Assembly (NCBI RefSeq): GCF_000380335.1
Contig: NC_021149.1
Span: forward strand, 992,001-1,056,000
Length of the DNA stretch: 64,000 nucleotides
Source of the DNA: Azotobacter vinelandii CA
GTDB taxonomy: Bacteria; Pseudomonadota; Gammaproteobacteria; Pseudomonadales; Pseudomonadaceae
Reading direction: 5' to 3'
Both the position numbers and the translations under genes were made by a program. Below, piece after piece: positions 9,707 to 41,688 of the stretch. The notes beneath the pieces are model-generated. The model saw nothing but the letters and a program-made list of their open reading frames with translations. It ran no database searches and had not been told where the DNA came from. How positions within the stretch are numbered: the stretch's first letter is position 1; every line of letters begins with the position of its first letter.

Positions 9707-9878
9707 AAGCCCCTCCTTGCAATGTCGAAGTTGAAGGATCGGTGACTCCGACATGGCGGCGGCAGCCGTCAGAGGGGCCCGGCGTCACGTATTCAGGCTA
9801 GTGATCCGGCGCGCAGGACTCAAGCCCGAAGCCGTTGCAAGCTTTTTCGGAGCGCCAGGCGGCGTGCTCCGCTGGAGT

Positions 9879-29888: not shown

Positions 29889-30004
29889 GATGTTTATCTG
29901 GCAGGGAAGGGCGCGGGGGGCGATTTCGAAAGGCGCGCCACTATAGCAAGGGCGATGGCGGGATTCCTTTCATTAACCGGCCTGGGCAGGCGGAGGGGAT
30001 GAAG

Positions 30005-30697
30005 CCGGACTGGAAAGATTGTATGTCGGGGCGTTTCGGCTCCGCTGCATCAGCTGCTTGCCGAGTGGCCGGACAGTCCCTGTTTCGGGCCCCCGCCCGA
30101 GTCACTTTCTCTTTGCTCGCGCAAAAGAGAAAGTGACCAAAGAGAAAGCGCGCCCGATCATTCGGCCCCGGCTGCGCCGGGGTTCCCTCGCTCCGGCGCC
30201 GCTCCGGGGGCACGTCGCGAAGGGACGTCCCTGTCCCTTCGCGACTCGCTCGGCGTCCTGCCTCGCGTCCCCCTCCGCGACACCTGCGCTCGGCCTCCTG
30301 AACGGGAGTCGGTTCCGCGCTGCCTGAAAGCGCTTTTGCTCTTCTTGTGGCACCACGGCCTGTCAGGCAACGCCGGATGCCCCCTTCAGGAGGCCGAGCG
30401 GAATCGTCGTGGAAGGGGTCGAGCGGCAAGGATGCCGCGAGAGCCGCGATGGGCCATGGATGGCCCTTCGCGGCGGGCCCCTGGAACGGCGATGTAGGGA
30501 GGGAACCCGGAGCGAAGCGCAGGGCCGGATGAGGGGGTGGCCTTCTTTTTGGTTACTTTTTCTTGGCCAAAACAAGAAAAAGTGACTCGGCCGGGGGGCC
30601 GAAACAGGGAGTGTCCGGCCCCTCGGCAAGCAGCCATGCCAAGGCTCACACAATCTTTCCAGTCTGATATCAGGCGAGCGCTTCATGCGATTGCCCC
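30005..30697. repeat. Fold-back repeat element, copy A
   Basis: About 690 bp, nearly the same sequence as 40936-41665. The right end is a 51-bp motif at 30647-30697 (ending in inverted GGGCAATCGCATGAAGCGC); the left end is a shortened inverted copy starting CCGGACTGGAAAGATTGT. The two arms are inverted repeats of each other over GCTTGCCGAG, GGCCGGACA and CCTGTTTCGG, and each arm carries a hairpin (30101-30137 and 30552-30586). The middle holds further inverted repeats (CGCTCGGCCTCCTGAA and complement). Frames inside it are not supported as genes. Confidence 0.85.
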
Positions 30698-30791
30698 GAT
30701 TACCGATCCTTTCAAGGGCTCTGACCGCAGGGGCCGGCCTCCCGGACCGGGCGTCGTCCCCCGTTGTCCTGGCATGGATGGAGCGGCAGGC

Positions 30792-31595
30792 TCAGTGCAG
30801 CGCATCCACCACTTCTACCTGACGCAGGCGCTGGTCCAGCCGCAGGCGCTCGCTCGGGTCGTCGCAGAGCAGCAGGGCGCGCTGCAGGTCGAAACGCTCG
30901 CCCTGGGGGCATTCGAGCCGTTGGTAGAGATCGGCCCGGGCGAGGTGGTCGGCGACGCTGGGCGGACCGAGCAGCAGGACCCGCTCGGCGTCCTTCAGGG
31001 CCGCCAGCGGGTCGTCGTTCTGCTCGTGCAACTGGCGCAGCAGGCGCGACAGGTGTTGCAGCAGGTGATGCGCGGGACAGGACTGCAGGTGGCGGCCCTC
31101 CAGTTCCGCCGGCGCGCCGTGCTGGCGCAGCAGCAGTTCGCGGCAGTCGCGGCTGTAGAGGCGGCGGCCGCTGACGGGATCGAGCAGGTGGTCGGCGTTT
31201 TCCACGCGCAGCAGGAGGTGTCCGGGGAAGTCCACGCCATACAGGGGAATCTCCAGGCGCCGGGCCACTTCCAGGGCGATCAGCGCCAGCGCCAGCGGAT
31301 GGCCGCGACGCTGTTGCAGCACCCGGTGCGGCAGCGCCGCGGCCGGGCGCAGCGGCAGGTGGTCCTCTTCGTGGAGGCCCAGGTCGTGCAACAGGCGCAG
31401 CAGCGGCTGACCCAACTCCCGCGCCGGCAGGACGGGCAGGCCGGCGGCGACCTGTTGCGCCAGGCCGCCGATGTCGCGCAGGACGGGTTCGGGGCGCAGG
31501 GCGGGGTCGTGTTCGGTGGCGATCCACAAGGCAGCCTCGAAGAGGGCTGGCGGATCGCGTTGCAGGCAGGCAAAGCAGGCTTGGCGCGAGTTCAT
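30792..31595 (-). CDS. SirB1 family protein (transglutaminase-like and TPR regions)
   Basis: Cytosolic protein of 267 residues. The SirB1 N-domain (about 1-160) has a conserved block (QQRRGHPLALALIALEVARR; LEIPLYGVDFPGHLLLRVEN), the inactive or altered transglutaminase-like core of this family. The C-terminal helical TPR-like part (about 190-265) contains DPLAALKDAERVLLLGPP. Relatives are widespread in proteobacteria without a firm function. The ATG at 31595 is preferred over 31610 because AGGAG is six bases before it. It is divergent from the leucine dehydrogenase gene. Confidence 0.82.
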   Translation of the reverse strand: MNSRQACFACLQRDPPALFEAALWIATEHDPALRPEPVLRDIGGLAQQVAAGLPVLPARELGQPLLRLLHDLGLHEEDHLPLRPAAALPHRVLQQRRGHPLALALIALEVARRLEIPLYGVDFPGHLLLRVENADHLLDPVSGRRLYSRDCRELLLRQHGAPAELEGRHLQSCPAHHLLQHLSRLLRQLHEQNDDPLAALKDAERVLLLGPPSVADHLARADLYQRLECPQGERFDLQRALLLCDDPSERLRLDQRLRQVEVVDALH

Positions 31596-31719
31596 GACAT
31601 ACTCCTGCACTCTTGTCCTGTTTTTAGCCGCCGTGAAGGAATCCGTCCAGAGCGCGCCGACCGCTGCGGCCGGGGGCCACGCCTATACTCAGGGTGAACG
31701 TCAGCCAGGGAGTATCGCC

Positions 31720-32739
31720 ATGTTCGCCCTGATGAAAGCCGCCCGGCTCGAAGCATTGCATCTGACGCGGGATCCCGTCACCGGCCTCGAAGCCATCATC
31801 GCCATCCACAGCACCCGTCTCGGTCCCGCGCTCGGCGGCTGCCGCTTCCTCGACTACGCCGACACCGAGAGCGCGGTGCGCGACGCCATGCGCCTGGCCC
31901 AGGGCATGAGCTACAAGGCCGCGCTGGCCGGGCTGGAACTCGGCGGCGGCAAGGCGGTGCTGATCCGCCCACCGCACATCGGCGACCGCTGCGCGCTGTT
32001 CCAGGCCTTCGGACGCTTCATCGAAACCCTCGGTGGCCGCTACATCACCGCCGTCGACAGCGGTACCTCGAGCACCGACATGGACTGCATCGCCCGGCAG
32101 ACCCGACATGTCACCAGCACCACCGACGAGGGCGACCCCTCGCCGCACACCGCCGAGGGGGTGTTCGCCGGCATCCGCGCCACGGCCAGGGCGCGTCTCG
32201 GTTGCGAGGAGCTGGAGGGCTTGCGTATCGCCGTGCAGGGCCTCGGCCATGTCGGCTACGCGCTGAGCGAGCGGCTCGCCGCGGCCGGTGCCGAACTGCT
32301 GGTCAGCGATCTCGAGCACAGCCGCGTGCAGCGGGCGGTCGAGCACCTGGGCGCGCGCCCGGTGGCCAGCGACGCGCTGCTGCGCGAACCCTGCGACATC
32401 CTGGCGCCCTGCGGCCTGGGCGGCATCCTCAACGGCGAGTCGGTCGGCACGCTGCGCTGCGCCGCGGTGGCCGGCGCTGCCAACAACCAACTGGCCGGCC
32501 CGGAGGTCGCCGATCTGCTGCAACGGCGCGGCATCCTCTATGCGCCGGACTACGTTATCAATGCCGGCGGGCTGATCTACGTGGCGCTGCGTCACCGCGG
32601 CGAAAGCGACCAGAGCATCGGCGCGCACCTGGGCGGCATCCGCCTGCGGTTGAGCGCCATCTACGCACGTTCCCTGGCCGAGGGATGCTCGCCGGCGCGC
32701 ATCGCCGACGAGGAGGCGGAGCGGCTGATCTACGGCTAG
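31720..32739 (+). CDS. ldh: Leucine (branched-chain amino acid) dehydrogenase
   Basis: Glu/Leu/Phe/Val-dehydrogenase family enzyme of 339 residues. The substrate domain has GPALGGCRF and the glycine-rich block YKAALAGLELGGGKAVL, whose lysines bind and activate the amino acid. The NAD domain has VQGLGHVGYALSERLAA. It deaminates leucine, valine and isoleucine to 2-oxo acids, which are substrates of the dehydrogenase encoded 133 bp downstream. The order (ldh, E1alpha, E1beta, E2) matches the P. aeruginosa PA3418-PA3415 region as I recall it. AGGGAG precedes the ATG. Confidence 0.9.
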   Translation: MFALMKAARLEALHLTRDPVTGLEAIIAIHSTRLGPALGGCRFLDYADTESAVRDAMRLAQGMSYKAALAGLELGGGKAVLIRPPHIGDRCALFQAFGRFIETLGGRYITAVDSGTSSTDMDCIARQTRHVTSTTDEGDPSPHTAEGVFAGIRATARARLGCEELEGLRIAVQGLGHVGYALSERLAAAGAELLVSDLEHSRVQRAVEHLGARPVASDALLREPCDILAPCGLGGILNGESVGTLRCAAVAGAANNQLAGPEVADLLQRRGILYAPDYVINAGGLIYVALRHRGESDQSIGAHLGGIRLRLSAIYARSLAEGCSPARIADEEAERLIYG

Positions 32740-32872
32740 AGTTCAGGAGGCGCCGGCCGGAGGACACCCCTTCGCGGCGCCCTCGTGGATTTCGAGATGC
32801 AATCGTCCCGTCATTGCCCGCAGCCACAAGCGGCGGGTTCGGACGCGCCCACAAGGCGCCGAGGAGTCCAGA

Positions 32873-33961
32873 ATGTCACCCGATCTTCCCTACACCCGCT
32901 ACCTGGCGCCCGACGGCCGGCCGCTGGCCGAGCTGCCCGCCTGGGCCGACGATTTCAACCTGCTCACCCGACTCTACCGGCAGATGGTGCTGACCCGTCT
33001 GTTCGACCAGAAGGCAGTGGCCCTGCAGCGCACCGGGCGGATCGGCACCTATGCGCCGACCCTCGGCCAGGAGGCCATCGGCGTGGCCATCGGCAGCCTG
33101 ATGCAGGCCGAGGACGTGCTGGTGCCCTATTACCGCGACACCGCCGTGCAGTTGATGCGCGGGGTATGCATGGAGGAGATCCTCCTCTACTGGGGCGGCG
33201 ACGAGCGCGGCAGCGACTTCGTCGATCCGCGCGCCGCCCGGGATTTCCCGATCTGCGTGCCGATCGCCACCCAGGCCCTGCATGCCTGCGGCGTGGCCAC
33301 GGCGTTCAAGATCCGCGGCGAGCACCGCGTCGCCGTCACCACCTGCGGCGACGGCGCGACCAGCAAGGGCGACTTTCTCGAGGCGCTGAACGTCGCCGGC
33401 GCCTGGCAGTTGCCGGTGGTCTTCGTGGTCAACGACAACCAGTGGGCGATCTCGGTGCCGCGGCGCATCCAGTGCGGCGCGCCGACCCTGGCGCAGAAGG
33501 CGATCGGCGCCGGCATCCACGGCGAGCAGGTCGACGGCAACGACATCCTCGCCGTCTGCGACCGCATGCGCCAGGCCCTGGCGCGCGCCCGCCACGGCAA
33601 GGGGCCGGTGCTGCTGGAGTGCCTGAGCTACCGCCTGGGCGACCACACCACCGCCGACGACGCCACCCGCTACCGTTGCGCCGAGGAGGTTCGCCAGGCC
33701 TGGGAGGAGGAGCCGGTCAAGCGTCTGCGGGCCTTCCTCGCTTCCCAGGGGGTATGGGACGAAGGCCGCGAGCAGGCGCTGGTCGCCGACTGCCAGGCCG
33801 AGGTGCAGCGCGCCGTGGAGTCCTTCGAGGCGGCCGGCGTGCAGCCGCTGTCCTCGGTGTTCGAGCATGTCTACGCGCGCTGGCCCTCGGCCCTGGCCGA
33901 GCAGCGCGAGACGCTCGCGGAACGGCTGGTCCGCCGCCAGGGAGGCGAATGTCATGAGTAA
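32873..33961 (+). CDS. 2-oxo acid dehydrogenase E1 alpha subunit (branched-chain type)
   Basis: Thiamine-diphosphate enzyme subunit of 362 residues. The ThDP motif runs from GDGATSKGDFLEALN to VVNDNQWAIS (about 160-195). IGTYAPTLGQEAIGVAIGSL lies near 56-75 and the phosphorylation-loop-like YRLGDHTTADDATRYR near 248. It decarboxylates branched-chain 2-oxo acids with the E1beta partner. Genes like this are often labelled pdhA, but linkage with leucine dehydrogenase favours branched-chain substrates. It overlaps E1beta by eight bases. Confidence 0.9.
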   Translation: MSPDLPYTRYLAPDGRPLAELPAWADDFNLLTRLYRQMVLTRLFDQKAVALQRTGRIGTYAPTLGQEAIGVAIGSLMQAEDVLVPYYRDTAVQLMRGVCMEEILLYWGGDERGSDFVDPRAARDFPICVPIATQALHACGVATAFKIRGEHRVAVTTCGDGATSKGDFLEALNVAGAWQLPVVFVVNDNQWAISVPRRIQCGAPTLAQKAIGAGIHGEQVDGNDILAVCDRMRQALARARHGKGPVLLECLSYRLGDHTTADDATRYRCAEEVRQAWEEEPVKRLRAFLASQGVWDEGREQALVADCQAEVQRAVESFEAAGVQPLSSVFEHVYARWPSALAEQRETLAERLVRRQGGECHE

Positions 33962-34940
33962 CGGAAAATACACCCTGGTGGAGGCGGTCAACCTGGCCCT
34001 GCACCGGGCGATGCGCGACGACGAGAATGTGGTGGTGCTCGGCGAGGACGTGGGGGTCAATGGCGGGGTGTTCCGCGCCACCCTCGGGTTGCGCGAGGCC
34101 TTCGGCTTCAAGCGGGTGCTCGACACGCCGCTGGCCGAGACCATGCTCGCCGGCCTTTCGGTGGGCATGGCCGCCCAGGGGCTCAGGCCGGTGGTCGAGA
34201 TCCAGTTCATGGGTTTCGTCTACGCCGCCATGGAGCACCTGGTGTCCCACGCCAGCCGCCTGCGCAACCGCACCCGCGGCCGGCTGAGCTGCCCCATGGT
34301 GCTGCGCACGCCGATGGGCGCTGGCATCCGCGCGCCGGAGCACCACAGCGAGAGCACCGAGGCGCTGTTCGCGCACATCCCCGGTCTGCGCGTGGTGGTG
34401 CCGTCTTCCCCGGCGCGGGCCTACGGCCTGCTGCTGGCGGCCATCGACGACCCCGACCCGGTGGTCTTCCTCGAACCGACCCGCTTGTACCGGATGAATC
34501 CGCAGCCCGTGGCCGACGACGGCCGGCGCCTGCCGCTGGACAGTTGCTTCACCCTGCGCGAGGGCCGCGACCTGACCCTGGTCAGTTGGGGCGCCAGCGT
34601 CCACGAGAGCCTGCAGGCCGCTGCCGCCCTGGCCGAGCGCGGCATCGACGCCGAGGTGATCGACGTCGCCTGCCTCAAGCCGCTGGACCTCGACACCCTG
34701 GAGGCCTCGGTACGCAAGACCGGCCGCTGCGTGATCGTCCACGAGGCGCCGAAGAGCTGCGCGGTCGGCGCGGAGATCGCCGCCAGCCTCTACGAGCGCG
34801 TCCTGCCCGACCTGCATGCGCCGATCCAGCGCGTCGCCGCCCCGGACATTCCGCCGCCGCTGTACCGGCTGGAGCAGTTCTACCTGCCGGGCACCGGGGA
34901 CATCCTCGCCGCTTGCGAGACGGTGCTGGACTACGCCTGA
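33954..34940 (+). CDS. 2-oxo acid dehydrogenase E1 beta subunit
   Basis: Transketolase-like subunit of 328 residues. It begins KYTLVEAVNLALHRAMRDDE, with GEDVGVNGGVFRAT (about 24-37), a conserved region LAETMLAGLSVGMAAQGLRP and the C-domain GRCVIVHEAPKSCAVGAEIA. It forms the alpha2-beta2 E1 with the upstream gene. The frame is open further upstream, but the start overlapping the E1alpha stop gives the normal N-terminus. E2 follows after 19 bp with an AGAGGAG ribosome site. Confidence 0.9.
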   Translation: MSNGKYTLVEAVNLALHRAMRDDENVVVLGEDVGVNGGVFRATLGLREAFGFKRVLDTPLAETMLAGLSVGMAAQGLRPVVEIQFMGFVYAAMEHLVSHASRLRNRTRGRLSCPMVLRTPMGAGIRAPEHHSESTEALFAHIPGLRVVVPSSPARAYGLLLAAIDDPDPVVFLEPTRLYRMNPQPVADDGRRLPLDSCFTLREGRDLTLVSWGASVHESLQAAAALAERGIDAEVIDVACLKPLDLDTLEASVRKTGRCVIVHEAPKSCAVGAEIAASLYERVLPDLHAPIQRVAAPDIPPPLYRLEQFYLPGTGDILAACETVLDYA

Positions 34941-34959
34941 GGGACAGAGGAGAACGAGC

Positions 34960-36063
34960 ATGAAATATTTCAAACTGCCCGACCTCGGCGAAGGTCTGCA
35001 GGAAGCCGAGATCGTCGAGTGGCACGTCAAGGCCGGCGACAGCGTGAAGGCCGACCAGTTGCTGGTTTCGGTGGAAACCGCCAAGGCCATCGTCGATATC
35101 CCGGCGCCCTATGACGGGGTGGTGGCCAAGACCTTCGGCGGGGTGGGCGATCTGCTGCACGTCGGCGAGCCGCTGATCGGCTACGAAGGAGAGGGCGACG
35201 CCGGCACCGTGGTCGGCCGTCTGGAAGGCGGCGCCGAGGGACAGGCGGACAGCTTCTGCATCGGCGCCGCGCCCTCGACCCGCGAGCATCTGGCACCGCG
35301 GGCTACCCCGGCGGTACGCCAGTTGGCGCAGAAACTGGGCGTCGAGCTGGCCGATCTGAAGGGCTCCGGCCCGGACGGGCTGGTCACCCGCGCCGACGTG
35401 GAGGCCGCCGCGGAGGGCGCGCGCGCGCGCTTCGGTGGCGAGAAGCTGCGCGGCGTGCGGCGCAGCATGGCGATCAACATGGCCCGCGCGCATGCCGAGG
35501 TGGTGCCGGTGACCCTGTTCGCCGACGCCGACCTGCATCGCTGGGCGCAGGCCCGCGACCCCATGGTGCGCCTGGCCGGGGCCATCGCCGCCGCCTGCGC
35601 CGCCGAACCGCTGCTCAACGCCTGGTTCGACGGCAGGAGCCTGTCGCTGCGCCGGCACGCACAGCTCGACCTGGGCATCGCCGTGGACACCCCGGACGGT
35701 CTCTTCGTGCCGGTGCTGCGCGACGTTGGTGCGCGTAGCGCGGAGGATCTGAAGGAGGGCATGGCCAGACTGCGCGCCGACGTGCGGGCGCGCTCCATTC
35801 CGCCGCAGGAGATGATGGGCGCGACCCTCACCCTGTCGAACTACGGCACCCTGTTCGGGCGCTACGCCAATCCCGTAGTGGTGCCGCCGCAGGTAGCCAT
35901 CGTCGGCGCCGGCGCCATCCGCCAGGAACCGGTGGCGGTGGACGGCCGGGTGGCCGTGCATCCGGTGCTGCCGCTGTCCTTGACCTTCGACCACCGCGCG
36001 GTCACCGGCGGCGAAGCGGCGCGTTTTCTCAAGGCGCTGGTCGAGGCGCTGGAACGGCCGTAG
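34960..36063 (+). CDS. Dihydrolipoamide acyltransferase (E2) of the 2-oxo acid dehydrogenase
   Basis: E2 core protein of 367 residues with one lipoyl domain (1-78; lipoylated K42 in VSVETAKAIVDIPAP), a Pro/Ala linker, a subunit-binding domain (about 112-148, ATPAVRQLAQKLGVELADLK) and a catalytic domain ending SLTFDHRAVTGGEAARFL. The catalytic histidine is present, while the usual aspartate of DHRxxDG is threonine. One lipoyl domain and short length match pseudomonad BkdB-like E2s. No E3 (lipoamide dehydrogenase) gene follows in the window, so E3 must be shared. Confidence 0.9.
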   Translation: MKYFKLPDLGEGLQEAEIVEWHVKAGDSVKADQLLVSVETAKAIVDIPAPYDGVVAKTFGGVGDLLHVGEPLIGYEGEGDAGTVVGRLEGGAEGQADSFCIGAAPSTREHLAPRATPAVRQLAQKLGVELADLKGSGPDGLVTRADVEAAAEGARARFGGEKLRGVRRSMAINMARAHAEVVPVTLFADADLHRWAQARDPMVRLAGAIAAACAAEPLLNAWFDGRSLSLRRHAQLDLGIAVDTPDGLFVPVLRDVGARSAEDLKEGMARLRADVRARSIPPQEMMGATLTLSNYGTLFGRYANPVVVPPQVAIVGAGAIRQEPVAVDGRVAVHPVLPLSLTFDHRAVTGGEAARFLKALVEALERP

Positions 36064-36114
36064 CCCGCGGCTCGCGCCATCCGCCCGGCCCGCCCGGTGG
36101 CGCGACGGTTCGCC

Positions 36115-36336
36115 CTAGCTGGCGGAGTTTGCCGCCAGCTCTCCCTTCACTGCGGCGATGCAGCCCTGCAGCCACTGCGGGTCGCGCCATTGGTCGGCCT
36201 CGATGAGGTGGCGCAGGGCGATGCCCGTGTTGTCGGAAAGCGTCATCAGAATGCTGCCGTCCGGGCCTTTCACGCAGAAATTGACGTTGTATTCCGCTTG
36301 GAAAGCCTCGCTGATGGTCTGGAAAGGGCTATCCAT
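36115..36336 (-). CDS. Small conserved pseudomonad protein, DUF3509-like
   Basis: Protein of 73 residues starting MDSPFQTISEAFQAEYNVNF and containing VKGPDGSILMTLSDNTGIAL. Composition and layout (short acidic/aromatic N-part, GPDGS turn, a helix RHLIEADQWRDPQWL) resemble the DUF3509 family of Pseudomonas. No function is known. It converges with the E2 gene; a weak hairpin (7-bp stem, 36072-36105) lies between them. Confidence 0.6.
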   Translation of the reverse strand: MDSPFQTISEAFQAEYNVNFCVKGPDGSILMTLSDNTGIALRHLIEADQWRDPQWLQGCIAAVKGELAANSAS

Positions 36337-36619
36337 GGGCGTACTTCCTGCACGAGTGACTGATGAACGAATGGACAGGCAGCGGCGCAGCAAGTTCGTA
36401 GTCATCCGATCAAGCCCCTACATTTTTTTCCGACCGATGGGCTTGAGTTGGATTCGACGATTTGCAAAACATGGGCTAGTGCGTTTCCGCACCGAGCTGT
36501 CGATAATGCTCCCCGACGGATTCGATGGGGTATCTGGTCCGTTTCATGCATACTACATGCATCCATTCAAGGCCGCCTGCCGGGCTGTCCCCGTCGGGCG
36601 CTTACGCGAGGGCTGTAAA

Positions 36620-37120
36620 GTGAAGATCGACAAAGCTGAAGGATTGCGGCAGCAGATGCATGGGGTGGCCGAGTCGCTGGGCAACCTGCTGGTGGAGGGG
36701 TTCCACTACCTGGCGCTGTTCGCGATCGGTGGCGTGACGGCCTGGGCGGCGGTGCATGCCTTCTTCGACATGGTCGAAAAGGGCCACATCACCATCGACG
36801 ACATCCTCCTGCTGTTCATCTACCTCGAGCTCGGCGCCATGGTCGGCATCTACTTCAAGACCAACCACATGCCGATCCGTTTCCTCATCTACGTGGCGAT
36901 CACCGCGCTGACCCGGCTGATGATCGGCGACATTTCCCATAACCACTCGCCCTCCTGGGGGGTGGTGATAGTGTCCGGGGCGATCCTGCTGCTGGCCCTG
37001 TCGAACCTAGTGGTGCGCTACGCCTCCTCGCGCTTCCCGTCCGAGCAATCGGAAAGCCCGTCCTCCATACGTCGGCGCTTCATGATGTCGAAGGAAAAGA
37101 CCACCGCCACGACCGATTGA
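36620..37120 (+). CDS. psiE: PsiE family phosphate-starvation-inducible membrane protein
   Basis: Inner-membrane protein of 166 residues with four helices (about 22-42, 58-75, 83-100 and 120-140) and the family block LFIYLELGAMVGIYFKTNHM, followed by RFLIYVAITALTRLMIGD. Molecular function is unknown; E. coli psiE is induced by phosphate shortage. I chose the GTG at 36620, which follows GAGGG; the frame is open much further upstream without a ribosome site. The C-terminal 25 residues are polar (SEQSESPSSIRRR). A 15-bp tandem repeat starts just after the stop. Confidence 0.85.
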   Translation: MKIDKAEGLRQQMHGVAESLGNLLVEGFHYLALFAIGGVTAWAAVHAFFDMVEKGHITIDDILLLFIYLELGAMVGIYFKTNHMPIRFLIYVAITALTRLMIGDISHNHSPSWGVVIVSGAILLLALSNLVVRYASSRFPSEQSESPSSIRRRFMMSKEKTTATTD

Positions 37121-37121
37121 T

Positions 37122-37166
37122 CGGGTCGCGTCAGACCGGGTCACGGCAGACCGGGTCGCGTCAGAC
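37122..37166. repeat. 15-bp tandem repeat, three copies
   Basis: CGGGTCGCGTCAGAC, CGGGTCACGGCAGAC, CGGGTCGCGTCAGAC directly after the psiE stop. The copies are head to tail with two mismatches in the middle unit. Replication slippage is the likely origin. Confidence 0.85.
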
Positions 37167-37246
37167 CGGAGTCTGCTCCGCCCGGACGGCGGGACGGGCG
37201 TGCAGGGATGCACGCCGACGCCTCTTCGCGGCGATGCCGCAAACCC

Positions 37247-39865
37247 TCATTCCAGCGGCGCGAACAGCGCGGCGATATCTTCCTCTTCCATGCGCCATTC
37301 GCCCTGGATGGCGCCTTCCAGGAGGCCATGGGCCAGCTCGGCCTTGGCTTTCTGCAAGTGCTGGATCTTTTCCTCGACGCTGCCGCGGGCGATCAGCCGG
37401 TAGACGAACACCGGCTTGTCCTGGCCGATGCGGTAGGCGCGGTCGCTGGCCTGGGCTTCGGCGGCCGGGTTCCACCAGGGGTCGAAATGGATCACGGTGT
37501 CGGCGGCGGTCAGGTTCAGTCCGGCGCCGCCGGCCTTCAGGCTGATCAGGAACACCGGCACCCGGCCCGCCTGGAATTCCTCCACCGGAGTCCGCCGGTC
37601 GCGGGTGGCGCCGGTCAACTGGACGTAGGGGATCTTGCGTGCTTCCAATTCCCTGGCGATCAGTTCGAGCATGCCGGTGAACTGGGAGAACAGCAGCACG
37701 CGCCGGCCCTCGGCGGACAGTTCCTCGAGCATCGGCAGCAGCGCGCTCAGCTTGGCCGAGTCGGCGGCCTGGCAGCCGGCCACCGCCTCATCCTCGAGCA
37801 GGCGCAGGTCGCAGCACACCTGGCGCAGGCGCAGCAGGGCCTCGAGGATCAGCAACTGGCTGCGCGCCAGACCCTGGCGCTCGATCTCCGCGCGGATCTT
37901 GCTGTCCATCGCCAGGCGCAGGGTCTCGTAGCGGTCGCGCTGCGCTTCGCTCAGGTCCAGATACTGGGTGATCTCGCTCTTGGGCGGCAGTTCGGGGGCC
38001 ACCTGTTCCTTGGTCCGGCGCAGCAGGAAGGGACGCACCCGCGCCTTGAGATGGGCCAGGCGGGCGAGGTCGCCGTGCTTCTCGATGGGAAGACGATAGT
38101 TCCGCTTGAAGGCCTGCTGATCGCCGAGCCAGCCGGGCATCAGCAGGTGGAACAGCGACCAGAGTTCGCCCAGGTGGTTTTCCATGGGGGTTCCGGTCAG
38201 GCACAGGCGGTGCCGGGCGTCCAGTTCCCGCGCGGCCTGGGCGGCCTTGCTGCGCGGGTTCTTGATGTTCTGCGCCTCGTCGAGAATCAAGAGGTGATAG
38301 GACTGGCGGGCCAGAGCCTTGAGATCGCGGGAGAGCAGGGCGTAGCTGGTCAGCAGCAGGTCGGCGTCGCCCATTTCTCCGAACAGGGCGCTGCGCCTGG
38401 GCCCGTGCAGGGCCAGCACGCGCAGGTCGGGGGCGAAGCGCGCGGCCTCGTCCTGCCAGTTGGGGATCAGGCTGGTGGGCATGACGATCAGCGCCGGCGC
38501 GCTCAGGCGCCCGGCTTCCTTTTCCAGCAGGATGTGCGCCAGGGTCTGCAGGGTCTTGCCCAGACCCATGTCGTCGGCCAGCACGCCGCCGACCCGCAGT
38601 TCACGCAGCGCCTGCAGCCAGGCCAGGCCCTGCAACTGATAGGGGCGCAACTCGGCGCGCAGGCCGGCGGGAGCGGCGATCGGCTGTTGTGGCAGGTCGC
38701 GCAGGCGACGGGCGAAGTCGCGCAGCGTCTCGCCGCCTTGCCAGTGCAGCGGCAGTTCCGCCTCGAGGGCGGCCAGCCGGGCCGCGTCGGGACGCGCCAG
38801 GCGCAGGCGCTGCGGGGCTTCGTCAGGCCTCTGGAAGAACAATTCGCCGAGACTGGCCAGAAGCGGCCGGAGGCGGCCGAAGGGCAGGGCGACGCGCTGG
38901 GTGACGCCCGGCGTGCGTGACACCGGTACCAGCAGCAGTTCGTCGTCGGCGCGCCTGGCCAGGGCTTCCGGGGTCAGCAGCCAGGGACTGTGGCGGATGG
39001 CGTGGAGCAGGATCGGCAGCAGGCTGAGGCGCTGGCCCTGCACCTCGATACCCATTTCCAGATCGAACCAGTCCTGCCCTGCGGCCGGCTCCAGGTGCAG
39101 ATACCAGTCGTCGATATCCAGCAGGTTGTAATGGAAGTCCGGGCGCATCTCGATATGCCAACCCTGTTCGCGCAGCCGCGGCAGGTCGTGGCGCACCCAG
39201 CGCAGCCAGCTTTCGTCGTCGAGCAGTTCGAGGAGTTCGCCGACCGTTTCCGGCAGGGCCTCGCTCTTGCGCAGGGCGATGTGGAAGCCCTGTGCGGCGA
39301 GCGTCCGCCGGTGGCGCGCCTCGCTCTCGGAATGACGGCGGATACGCAGGATTTCCGTGGCGCCGGGTACCAGCAGATCCTTCGCCGGCTTGCCGAAGGC
39401 CAGTTGGTCGCCATAGCGGAAGGCCAGCGCCGCGCGATGCTGGAGCTGTTCCACCATGCGCCCCTTGCGGGTGTCGTAGTGCAGTCGTACGTGGCTGCCC
39501 AGGGTCAATTGGGGGGCTGGCTCGAGGTCGTCGATCCGCCGCTCGGGCAACACCGCCTTCGGCTCGGCGGGCGGCGACTGGCGCTGCAGGGTGAGCAGGG
39601 CCGCCACCACATGCTTGCAGTTGTGTCCCACCGGACAACTGCAACGGCCGTCGATGCGCCAGCCGTCGGCCCGCGACTGCAGGCGGATGTGCTGCCGGTA
39701 GCGGCGGGTCACCGAGCCTCGGCAACTGGCGTCGATTTCGTCCGGGGCGACCTGCAGCAGGGTGCAGCGTCCCTGGCTGGCGTAATCCTGGCCGCGCTGC
39801 AGGGTGCCGGGGTCGAACTGGTCGCGCCAGTCTTCCAGGCGCATCCGGAGGAAATCGGGCTGCAT
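37247..39865 (-). CDS. SNF2-family DEAD/DEAH helicase with SWIM zinc finger
   Basis: Large ATP-dependent nucleic-acid translocase of 872 residues. A SWIM zinc-binding motif ([11 protein letters not shown], about 75-85) comes first. The SNF2 ATPase core follows, with Walker A in [14 protein letters not shown] (about 432-445), motif [12 protein letters not shown], and the helicase C-domain with [10 protein letters not shown] and motif [12 protein letters not shown]. Bacterial relatives remodel transcription or DNA-protein complexes, but this clade has no settled role. It is monocistronic, with the IS inserted 128 bp upstream of its start. Confidence 0.88.
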
Positions 39866-39993
39866 CAGCGACCCTGCCGTGGCGGATGCTGCGGGGGAGG
39901 GAGGAGATTGTTCATGGGCACTGGGAAATCGATGGAAACCGCCGATTCTCTCACAGCGACGCGCATCGGGCAGCCTTGTCGGCCATTCGGCTA

Positions 39994-40820
39994 GGGTCTG
40001 TTAACTCTATTTACTAGAATGCAGCAAAACAGTGTTGAGACCGAGTGCCATGCAACTGACCGCCGAGCAATTCAAACAAATCGAAGGCTTGTTGCCGCGC
40101 CAACGCGGCAATGTACGCCTGGGCAACCTGCAAGTACTCAACGCCATCCTGTATGTGGCAGCCAACGGCTGCAAATGGCGCGCGCTGCCCGAACGCTATG
40201 GCAACTGGCACACCGTCTACACCCGCATGATGCGCTGGAGCAAAGCCGGCGTGCTCGATCGTGTTTTCGAACAGTTGCAGCGCCAGCGACTTATGCAGAT
40301 ACGCATCGAGGCCATCAGCCTCGACTCCAGTATCGTGAAGGTGCATCCGGATGGTACGGGCGCGCGAAAAAAAACGGTCCTCAAGCCCTCGGTCGCAGCC
40401 GCGGCGGCTGGAGCACCAAACTGCATCTGGTTGCCGCGGATGATCGCAATGTCGTGACCTGGAGCCTGACGGCGGGGCAGGCTGGCGATGCCCCCGAAGG
40501 CAGGCGCTTGATTCAGGCGTTGGGACCTCACCACGGGCTCGTGGCTCTGTTGATGGACAGTGCATACCAAGACAATGCCACGCGCGAGCTGGCTTGCGGC
40601 CTGGGTTTCGTGCCGGTGGTGCCACCCAACCCCCGGCGGCGCCAGCCGTGGGAGTATGACAAACCGCTCTATCGCCGACGCAACGGTATCGAGCGGCTGT
40701 TTCGACGACTCAAGGCCTGGCGCCGCGTGTTCACGCGCTACGACAAGCTTGACCTCATGTACGCCGCCTTCGTCACTGTGGCTCTTATCGCTGAGGCCCT
40801 ACGGTAGTGTTAACAGGCCC
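39994..40820 (+). mobile_element. IS5-family insertion sequence (IS427-like group)
   Basis: 827 bp bounded by GGGTCTGTTAAC and GTTAACAGGCCC inverted ends, flanked on each side by TA, which fits the short TA target duplication of this group. It carries one transposase split over two frames. The right end touches the GGGCAATCGCATGAA repeat motif that begins at 40823. The ends match those of the miniature element at 59250-59516. Confidence 0.88.
40050..40807 (+). CDS. IS5-family transposase made by -1 programmed frameshift
   Basis: The first frame (40050-40457) starts MQLTAEQFKQIEGLLPRQRG and contains the DUF4096-like N-domain and the first catalytic aspartate region (ISLDSSIVKVHPDG). At a run of eight A (40367-40374) a shift to the -1 frame joins AKKNGPQALGRSRGGWSTKL and the rest of the DDE domain (LLMDSAYQDNATREL, RRRNGIERLFRRLKAWRRV), ending at 40807. 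The fused product is about 252 residues. Both halves look intact, so the element may be active. Confidence 0.85.
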
Positions 40821-40822
40821 TA

Positions 40823-40923
40823 GGGCAATCGCATGAAATGCCCGCCCGATACTGGACTGGAAAGATTGTGTGTCGGAGCGTTCCAGCCCGGCTTCCCCTT
40901 TCGAAGCTTCATGCGATTGCTCC
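40823..40923. repeat. Short relative of the fold-back element
   Basis: About 100 bp starting with the 50-bp motif (GGGCAATCGCATGAAATGCC through GACTGGAAAGATTGTGTG) and ending with an inverted version of its tip (TTCATGCGATTGCTCC). It looks like a minimal element with the same ends, directly left of copy B and directly right of the IS. Confidence 0.7.
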
Positions 40924-40935
40924 GCCGAATGGCCA

Positions 40936-41665
40936 GGGCAATCGCATGAAGCGCTTGCCTGATACCGGACTGGAAAGATTGTGTGCCTGGTCGTTCTGGC
41001 GTGGTCTTCAGATCCAGTGCATCGGCTGCTTGCCGAGGGGCCGGACAGTCCCTGTTTCGGCCCCCCGGCCGAGTCACTTTCTCTTTGCTCGCGCGAAAGA
41101 GAAAGTAACCAAAGAGAAAGCGCGCCCGATCATCCGGCCCCGGCTACGCCGGGGTTCCCTCGCTCCGGCGCCGCTCCGGGGGCACGTCGCGAAGGGACGT
41201 CCCTGTCCCTTCGCGACTCGCTCGGCGTCCTGCCTCGCGTCCCCCTCCGCGACACCTGTGCTCGGCCTCCTGAACGGGAGTCGGTTCCGAACTGCCTGAA
41301 AGCGCTTTTGCTCTTCTTGTGGCACGGCCTGTCAGGCAACGCCGGATGCCCCCTTCAGGAGGCCGAGCGGAGTCGTCGCGCAAGGGGATGAGCCGCAGGG
41401 ATGCGGCTCAAGGCCCGAGGGCCATGGATGGCCCTTCGGGACGTGCCCCTGGAGCGACGACGCAGGGAGGGAACCCGGAGCGAAGCGCAGGGCCGGATGA
41501 GGGGGTGGCCTTCTTTTGGGTTACTTTTTCTTGGCCAAAACAAGAAAAAGTGACTCGGCCGGGGGGCCGAAACAGGGACTGTCCGGCCCCTCGGCAAGCA
41601 GCCATGCCAAGGTTCACACAATCTTTCCAGTCCGGTATCCGGCGGGCGTTTCACGCGATTGCCCC
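40936..41665. repeat. Fold-back repeat element, copy B
   Basis: About 730 bp bounded by the 50-bp motif in inverted orientation (40936-40985 and 41615-41665). It is nearly identical to copy A across the middle, with small differences such as a 3-base deletion in the TGGCAC-CGGCCTG region. Arm hairpins lie at 41073-41109 and 41520-41554. Arms are identical over about 50 bp (GCTTGCCGAGGGGCCGGACA and onward) and then diverge in sequence while keeping hairpins. It sits in the gap between the IS and the gene beside algA. Confidence 0.85.
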
Positions 41666-41688
41666 GGCCGTCCGGAGACGGCTGCGGT

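Follow-up and report, generated by a model that had tools for sequence, protein, structure and literature searches.

Two nearly identical, self-complementary stretches, copies A and B, lie in the window analysed here (64,000 nucleotides of Azotobacter vinelandii CA, assembly GCF_000380335.1, contig NC_021149.1, positions 992,001 to 1,056,000 of the forward strand; coordinates below are counted from its first letter), and they raise the question what kind of element is repeated here and what it may carry. An earlier note on this DNA took the two copies for members of a non-coding mobile or structural family other than a standard IS, REP or rRNA-related repeat. This proved right in substance, the family being both mobile and structured. 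Two features are added here to that description: ends of the ISAs1 transposon type and a known Rfam candidate RNA in the arms.

Borders and copy number of the element

The borders of both copies were fixed from terminal inverted repeats, the inverted ends of the earlier note. Copy B (40934..41666, forward strand) is a complete element of 733 bp, whose ends have no mismatches on the left and two on the right to the 17-bp repeat CAGGGCAATCGCATGAA. Copy A (29987..30698, forward strand) measures 712 bp by best fit and has one mismatch at its right end, while its left end is degraded and uncertain: the best fit at 29987 has 6 mismatches in 17 positions, and examination of a wider interval gave 29948 as an alternative. 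The two copies share 91% identity across positions 30–730 of B, with ungapped blocks of 95%, 94% and 83%. As was also claimed before, each copy is an imperfect inverted repeat of itself, with blocks inside a copy 78–98% complementary and with 72% identity between B and its own reverse strand over positions 1–729. A miniature derivative of 104 bp (40821..40924, forward strand) adjoins B on the left; it has the same terminal repeats (1 and 2 mismatches) and matches positions 1–61 of B.

Comparison of B with the whole genome by blastn gave 93 HSPs, which were joined into 15 full or near-full copies plus partial ones, so that one recent duplication confined to two places does not account for the family; the body of the element matches neither a known IS nor a prophage. 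Eight of the 15 full copies are uninterrupted, and seven are split by an IS481-family insertion. Beyond this genome, the fold-back was found in at least 126 of 198 genomes of Pseudomonadaceae and, with a relative used as the query, in at least 268 of 298 genomes of one genus, these counts being lower bounds obtained by scoring part of the first-look candidates. Among 72,556 plasmids 2 contained a fold-back match. ISL3-like ends were seen at 2 of 29 family loci.

Terminal repeats, target duplications and the transposase

Both terminal repeats are preserved with 0–3 mismatches in 11 of the 15 full copies; one end is degraded (6 mismatches) in A and in copy L039, and both ends are unrecognisable (7–10 mismatches) in L029 and L035. 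Target duplications, which the earlier note had proposed to define from empty sites in close strains, are present in the family but not at the two copies it described: 10-bp flanking repeats with no more than two mismatches were registered at 11 of 15 full copies, 6 of them exact, while clean duplications are absent at A, B, L029 and L035. The chance of such a match, taken as the best of 9 registers, is 0.8% per copy. At partial copies of the same genome the flanks differ by 1 (L042), 3 (L043) and, for the miniature copy, 5 mismatches. Short relatives sharing these ends in two further Azotobacter genomes are flanked by 10-bp duplications in 9 of 10 cases, 6 of them exact; the 10 were taken from 14 same-end stretches, L099, L100 and L101 being omitted because no second end could be paired with the first. 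Two of the short relatives, L094 and L096, have an insertion site in common. The two long relatives examined in genome G044, L050 (728 bp) and L097 (621 bp, end mismatches 1 and 3), show no clean target duplication. Because of its terminal repeats and 10-bp target duplications the element is classified as a non-autonomous, MITE-like transposable element.

A candidate for the enzyme was found outside this genome. Locus L245 is a 1237-bp IS with the same type of ends (0 mismatches and, on the right, 3), an exact 10-bp duplication and a transposase assigned to the ISAs1 family by an NCBIfam match. Locus L287 (1272 bp) resembles it by eye, and its reading frame seems broken; for a third pair of ends at IS distance, L291 (1744 bp), the flanks do not match. 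Probably, the element was moved by an ISAs1-family enzyme. Within the genus, 33 pieces of ISAs1 were counted in genome G033 and none in this genome (G000), G017 and G044. Such an end, at no more than 4 mismatches, accompanies 18 of 20 examined loci in G033, though agreement is mostly limited to the first 12 bases. In the genome studied, 30 loci were scanned out of 34 DDE_Tnp_1 matches and no IS with a matching pair of ends was found there; close ends turned up beside a single transposase gene, where they belong to B and the miniature copy. Since one protein query detected no ISAs1 transposase in this genome, present-day mobility of the element here is doubtful. An IS4Sa-type partner, whose terminal repeat and duplication as given in Table 1 of PMC2266710 would also fit, was dropped from consideration once an ISAs1 transposase turned up between such ends.

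Structured units in the two arms

The earlier note described the arms as inverted relatives of each other, and this part of its description holds, but they are related otherwise than as one long stem: each arm is a locally folded unit of about 205 nt, read outward, so that left and right units occupy opposite strands. In B the right-arm unit lies at 41354..41560 on the forward strand (MFE z-score −5.75) and the left-arm unit at 41067..41274 on the reverse strand; in A they occupy 30385..30592 (forward) and 30095..30302 (reverse), respectively. Right arms were aligned as A1 and left arms as A2, with 24 of 29 family loci (L049–L077) in the core alignment and five omitted for having a single arm or a short match. 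L060, near-identical to L059, was dropped from both alignments, L069 and L073 contributed left arms only, and the seven IS-split copies of this genome stayed outside.

In right arms 98.8% of cells were paired, and in 23 of 39 pairs both partners had changed; in left arms the values were 98.2% and 28 of 52. The covariation score was reached by none of 500 shuffles in either case, and structures slid along the alignment paired only 45–56% (right) or 50–60% (left) of cells. The number of further pair types did not stand out clearly from the shuffles, since 21 and 86 in 500 reached it. Loop sequences are conserved, while stems covary; the arms are under structural selection, which may conceivably act on a DNA form. 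A single long stem as the functional form is not favoured, because the two arms within one element agree less closely (78.5%) than randomly paired ones (81.0%, sd 1.0; 11 of 5000 random pairings were as low). This comparison covered 25 of the 29 elements, four near-identical copies of this genome being left out.

The core of the arm corresponds to the Rfam candidate RNA TwoAYGGAY (RF01731), in which, as in the units, two hairpins with AYGGAY loops share a common stem. The match in the right arm of A (30416..30480, forward strand, 46.1 bits) exceeds the gathering score of 43, and that in the right arm of B (41385..41448, forward strand, 42.0 bits) falls just under it; 8 of 20 further loci gave a match over this score. 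All 11 matches listed in this genome, from a search that scored 67 of 283 first-look candidates, lie within fold-back copies, one of which is a partial copy. Model positions 45–113 align to the arm core, and the outer stem of the Rfam model (1–44 and 114–168), unmatched among the matches listed here, is matched in some copies from other genomes.

Loops of the type CANGGAYG, putative RsmA/CsrA sites, were located in the right arm of B in hairpin a (41396..41403) and, 27 nt downstream, in hairpin b (41423..41430), both on the forward strand. In its left arm hairpin b has such a loop at 41198..41205, and hairpin a contains the variant CAGGACG, one base short, at 41226..41232, both on the reverse strand. 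Over 58 arms the motif occurs 95 times outward and never inward, with 1.7 expected. Two strict sites are present in 24 of 29 right and 15 of 29 left arms; if N is made optional, the numbers rise to 28 of 29 and 25 of 29, and of the 53 arms that then have two or more sites, 51 show a distance of 27–28 nt from the first to the second. The host genome has one csrA-family match. Binding of TwoAYGGAY by CsrA was predicted in 2014 (PMC4333381), and the P. putida RNAs bound in vivo by RsmA, RsmE and RsmI that are described in PMC7937890 include a “long palindromic region” downstream of PP_3547 and regions beside ISPpu8 copies. Judging from their loops, the arms would be expected to bind RsmA/CsrA.

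What the element may do

Based on these data one can assume, with moderate confidence, that a MITE-like element moved by an ISAs1 transposase carries as its cargo a double-ended unit that binds RsmA/CsrA. An ISAs1-family transposase would act on the 17-bp terminal repeats, move the element and leave 10-bp duplications. The cargo would be two RNA units of about 205 nt placed head to head, each read outward and folded as a closing stem around two hairpins with CA-NGGA-YG loops, mostly 27–28 nt apart as described for the TwoAYGGAY core, followed by a further hairpin and an A/T-rich one. Both loops would most likely be bridged by one RsmA/CsrA dimer. Since each strand of the element carries the unit, transcription crossing an inserted copy in either direction would give one unit in the binding orientation, and scattered copies may act as RsmA-binding sites or as titrating RNA.

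The least unlikely alternative is a plain MITE or fold-back, in which palindromes are kept for some use as DNA (cruciforms or single-stranded hairpins during transposition or replication) or by template-switch repair and the RsmA-like loops are incidental. It accommodates the mobility signature, as well as the many hairpin-forming parts and the landing of the IS481-family insertion in hairpin loops in all 7 copies found. Against it stand the conserved loops on covarying stems and a motif confined to the outward strand, and template switching would predict neither a fixed loop nor the spacing of 27–28 nt. Consensus energies are also better for the outward than for the inward strand (−54.0 vs −38.7 and −75.5 vs −47.3), and G-T cells outnumber A-C cells 22:3 among the pairs obtained when both strands were folded. 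Such asymmetry could, however, also come from DNA in single-stranded form, and one column in the inward-strand fold of left arms, with 25 A-C cells, runs counter to the strand argument. This alternative seems improbable to us.

Less credit still can be given to a two-sided transcription terminator or stabiliser of mRNA 3'-ends, with the A/T-rich outer hairpin as its functional part. The symmetrical design would suit this role, and terminator-like sites number 4 in A (shuffle mean 1.1, sd 1.1); however, B, with 2 such sites against a shuffle mean of 1.3 (sd 1.3), shows no real excess. By crude codon-based gene calls at the 15 copies, neighbouring genes are co-directional in 7 cases, divergent in 6 and convergent in only 1 of 14 scored (1 copy was unscored), and the conserved GGA loops are left unexplained.

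A giant REPIN, for which a HUH/RAYT-type enzyme would have mobilised an inverted pair of units in single-stranded form, with ISAs1 ends acquired later, would account for the disposition of units in other genomes of the family. In 10 of them, chosen by size and contig number, at least 34 pairs of neighbouring units no more than 700 bp apart were registered. In every pair the two units lie on opposite strands, pointing outward in 24 cases and inward in 10, and none share a strand; the centre between them varies in length, and REP-like repeats may occupy it. Against this, mobility in this genome is explained by terminal repeats and by 10-bp duplications of a kind not known from RAYT-type movement. 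This origin is very unlikely. Finally, a protein-coding repeat is hardly credible and was rejected: several frames stay open for about 100 aa and the open ones overlapping copies span 102 to 386 aa, but eight of them gave no Pfam or NCBIfam family at E up to 1, in line with the previous impression that no convincing gene is inside, relatives differ by one- and two-base indels, and it is base-pairing that is conserved.

If the MITE-like carrier of RsmA/CsrA-binding units is the correct reading, its wider consequence can be put forward only tentatively. Transposable “regulon-wiring” elements may form a large family in Pseudomonadaceae, in which each insertion would add a bivalent RsmA/CsrA docking RNA to the local transcript in either orientation and so spread and tune the global post-transcriptional network, while dispersed copies together would titrate RsmA. 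If RsmA does bind the arms, the predicted RNA family TwoAYGGAY gains a natural context as the cargo of mobile double-ended elements across Pseudomonadaceae, the recovery of IS-flanking palindromes in Rsm pull-downs would be explained, and the Rsm network would be open to rewiring and titration via transposition.

Comparison with known systems

As a MITE the element is typical in its terminal repeats, fixed-length target duplication, lack of its own transposase, autonomous relative elsewhere and many copies. It differs from a MITE seen as a shrunken IS in that its cargo is a conserved structured unit, and it is longer than the 66–163-bp relatives in sister Azotobacter species. Unlike an ISAs1 insertion sequence, which has a transposase gene inside, it contains none (no Pfam or NCBIfam match).

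REPINs are likewise intergenic and multi-copy, but they are about 100 bp long and made of two REP sequences of 20–40 bp, which have a RAYT partner, whereas the unit described here has about 205 nt and no REP was seen by eye in A or B. In Rsm/Csr sponge RNAs (RsmX/Y/Z, CsrB) hairpins occur in pairs and their GGA loops follow the CsrA consensus, and herein lies the likeness to the arms; in contrast to them the element is dispersed in many copies, double-ended and mobile, and a search for sigma-70-like promoters in A and B found none. By description, it is comparable with the intergenic, multi-copy R families of P. fluorescens (R200, R26, R178), several R families being inverted repeats according to the account in PMC2718517. 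Also by description, the ISPpu8-associated palindrome of P. putida KT2440 (PMC7937890) is similar as a long palindrome with an IS beside or inside it. There, however, the IS belongs to the IS4 family (ISPpu8, given in PMC3056050 as 1419 bp with an 11-bp duplication), whereas that in copies of the element is of the IS481 family. TwoAYGGAY itself shares with the units its two GGA-loop hairpins, but here it is just the inner part of the ~205-nt unit, doubled head to head within a transposable element.

Copies of the fold-back in the genome and beyond

The two fold-back copies of the window, A (29987–30698 by best fit) and B (40934–41666, 733 bp), were described in an earlier note as nearly identical and built of inverted arms. 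Both points held: A and B agree at 91% over B positions 30–730, and each is an imperfect inverted repeat of itself. The searches with B proposed in the same note showed that the family is much larger. In the host genome (5,366,370 bp, single contig) blastn gave 93 HSPs, which after joining made 15 complete or nearly complete copies (8 uninterrupted, 7 split) plus partial ones; in all split copies the insertion lies at one common internal point. Within Pseudomonadaceae at least 126 of 198 genomes matched, in at least 13 of 19 genera, and it is the inner part (B ~119–638) that is not restricted to Azotobacter. A core query hit at least 32 genomes among 398 sampled in the phylum: 17 belong to the family, and the other 15 matched in pieces <175 bp only. 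The fold-back of another genus, used as query, matched at least 268 of 298 genomes from its own genus. Among 72,556 plasmids there were matches in 2, both short.

Fold-back copies are themselves targets of insertion. An IS481-family IS (NF033577, 301 bits) of ~1.28 kb was registered at B position 602–605, and all seven long copies of it found in the genome reside in the outer A/T-rich hairpin loop of a fold-back copy (loci L031, L033, L034, L037, L038, L039 and L041), in both orientations and with GCCAGA on the flanks. A 28-bp remnant of this IS (G000:C1:2846129) abuts an eighth, partial copy. At L033 (2108–4444) the insertion of 2337 bp comprises the IS481 copy and a further transposase gene region (~1.05 kb) that by eye looks IS630-like. 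At L044 (7987–8637; G000:C1:5318986–5319636) three tandem 216-bp repeats with 96% matches, each containing the start of an arm unit, adjoin a differently ended fold-back copy.

Structure and strand of the arms

Arms were aligned separately for the right (29 elements) and left (31 elements, other strand) sides, leaving out the seven split copies. Both consensus folds agree in a closing stem round two small hairpins, followed by a hairpin before CCGGATG and a long A/T-rich hairpin. In right arms 98.8% of cells are paired and both-side changes occur in 23 of 39 pairs; the covariation score is 0.389 versus 0.163 in shuffles, none of 500 being as high, and slid structures are only 45–56% paired. 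For left arms the corresponding values are 98.2%, 28 of 52 pairs, 0.365 versus 0.157 (0/500) and 50–60%. The excess of further pair types over shuffles is less clear (21/500 and 86/500 shuffles as high). The right arm of B folds 5.75 standard deviations below its shuffles.

Long-range pairing of one arm with the other is not favoured as the kept feature: the arms of one element are less alike than random arm pairs (78.5% versus 81.0%, 25 elements; 11 of 5000 as low), and therefore two different versions of the unit appear to be kept. To compare strands, G–T and A–C cells were counted in pairs obtained from folding both strands and having two-sided Watson–Crick changes. Read outward from the centre, they number 8 versus 3 in right and 14 versus 0 in left arms; against this stands one pair derived from the inward strand of left arms only, with 25 A–C cells, all in the same column. 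In either arm the outward reading has the better consensus energy (−54.0 versus −38.7 and −75.5 versus −47.3). Because of this G–T excess and the better outward energy, a single-stranded form read outward, be it RNA or one DNA strand, is favoured.

The right arm matches the Rfam candidate RNA TwoAYGGAY (RF01731), with 46.1 bits in A (above the gathering cut-off of 43) and 42.0 in B (below it), as do 8 of 20 other loci; the 11 matches listed for the genome all fall in fold-back copies, one of them partial. A terC RNA (RF03067, 49.1 bits, gathering 39.9) lies at 9739–9790 of the window on the minus strand. The loops of the TwoAYGGAY hairpins read CANGGAYG, the pattern that CsrA/RsmA recognises in hairpin loops. 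Over 58 arms of 29 elements this motif occurs 95 times outward and never inward, against an order-1 Markov expectation of 1.7 (200 runs, the highest giving 7). With N optional, 28/29 right and 25/29 left arms have two sites (strict motif: 24 and 15), and in 51 of these 53 arms they lie 27 or 28 nt apart; in the left arm of B one site is strict and the other shortened.

Ten further genomes, chosen by size, contained at least 139 TwoAYGGAY units, in at least nine of the ten. Neighbouring units at most 700 bp apart formed at least 34 pairs, 24 outward and 10 inward, with none same-strand among those listed. Around such units in one genome (G764) six of nine stretches inspected hold a palindrome of ~770–1590 bp with the same minus-minus/plus-plus site pattern as the fold-back, and the other three show a single arm. 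One palindrome of G764 (L405, 1879–3464; 1.6 kb) has the arm unit as outer frame and a centre of REP-like and CGTTCCCACGCTCCGCGTGG repeats.

Ends, target duplications and candidate movers

Fold-back copies terminate in CAGGGCAATCGCATGAA and its complement. The 14-base core of this end has 39 sites in the genome at ≤1 mismatch, 27 of them exact, and its reversed control none. Directly outside the ends, 10-bp flank repeats at ≤2 mismatches accompany 11 of the 15 full copies (6 exact; chance level 0.8% per copy) and were absent at A, B, L029 and L035. Neither end is preserved in L029 and L035, the left end of A is degraded, and B adjoins a 104-bp miniature copy with its terminal repeats (40821–40924). 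To the left of this miniature and of B lies a transposase ORF, IS5-like by eye (40019–40807), one of seven genome copies with equal DDE_Tnp_1 score.

Two other Azotobacter genomes (G017 and G044) have CAGGGCAATCGCATGAA-type ends around much shorter bodies of 66–163 bp (L089–L096, L098 and L102), mostly with 10-bp duplications (9 of 10 tested, 6 exact; L094 and L096, one site in two genomes, are both counted). Six bodies hold a sequence that we take, by eye, to be REP-like, two contain a CCCTCTCC palindrome and two of 66 bp neither. Long fold-backs between such ends occur in G044 as well, namely L050 (728 bp) and L097 (621 bp), with no matching flanks found at either. A single type of end has thus carried palindromic bodies of different kinds, as if it collected palindromes. 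In other phyla short elements of 100–223 bp also lie between CAGGGCAATCGCATGAA-type ends (L213, L215, L223, L229, L260, L265, L271 and L286), and their flanks look duplicated. In two relatives from other genera (L055 and L056) the fold-back ends in GGTTCWTCGC-type repeats, presumably ISL3-like, directly after a terminator T-run and with TTTTTA on both sides.

The exact 17-mer end was found in at least 118 stretches in a scan of 84,980 genomes, where arithmetic from size alone predicts ~30 by chance. Among the 80 loci listed, L245 (1237 bp, in a Syntrophobacteraceae MAG) and L287 (1272 bp, in an Accumulibacter MAG) each have a second end spaced as in an IS, flanks that repeat 10 bp exactly, and a reading frame that looks like a transposase. 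By eye L287 resembles L245, and its frame seems broken. The flanks of a third end pair at IS distance, L291, do not match. The L245 protein scores 441 bits against the ISAs1 transposase model of NCBIfam (cut-off 70) and matches Pfam DDE_Tnp_1_assoc and DDE_Tnp_1. Searched against four Azotobacter genomes, it gave 33 pieces, all in G033, and none in G017, G044 or the host genome; a CAGGGCAATCGCATGAA-type end at ≤4 mismatches accompanies 18 of 20 inspected G033 loci, mostly with the first 12 bases in common. Because of this ISAs1 match and the pieces with such ends in G033 only, ISAs1-type enzymes are most likely the movers of the fold-back, and a fitting one seems to have been lost from, or never present in, this genome.

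Comparison with known systems

We file the fold-back as a MITE with ISAs1-type ends and a doubled TwoAYGGAY RNA as cargo. The genome has one CsrA-family match, and A. vinelandii is reported to have a Gac-Rsm system. Putting the parts together, we infer that the fold-back may serve for regulon wiring. One study states that one CsrA dimer takes two such hairpins and that TwoAYGGAY was already proposed, from motif matches, to bind CsrA (PMC4333381). In the open papers searched, which did not extend to subscription papers and supplements, no transposable fold-back that carries RsmA-type sites turned up. The P. fluorescens repeats R200 (320 bp) and R26 (352 bp) may be relatives (PMC2718517). Among the RNAs recovered with RsmA, RsmE and RsmI in P. 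putida KT2440 are a “long palindromic region downstream PP_3547” and intergenic stretches next to copies of ISPpu8, which could be homologous to the fold-back (PMC7937890).
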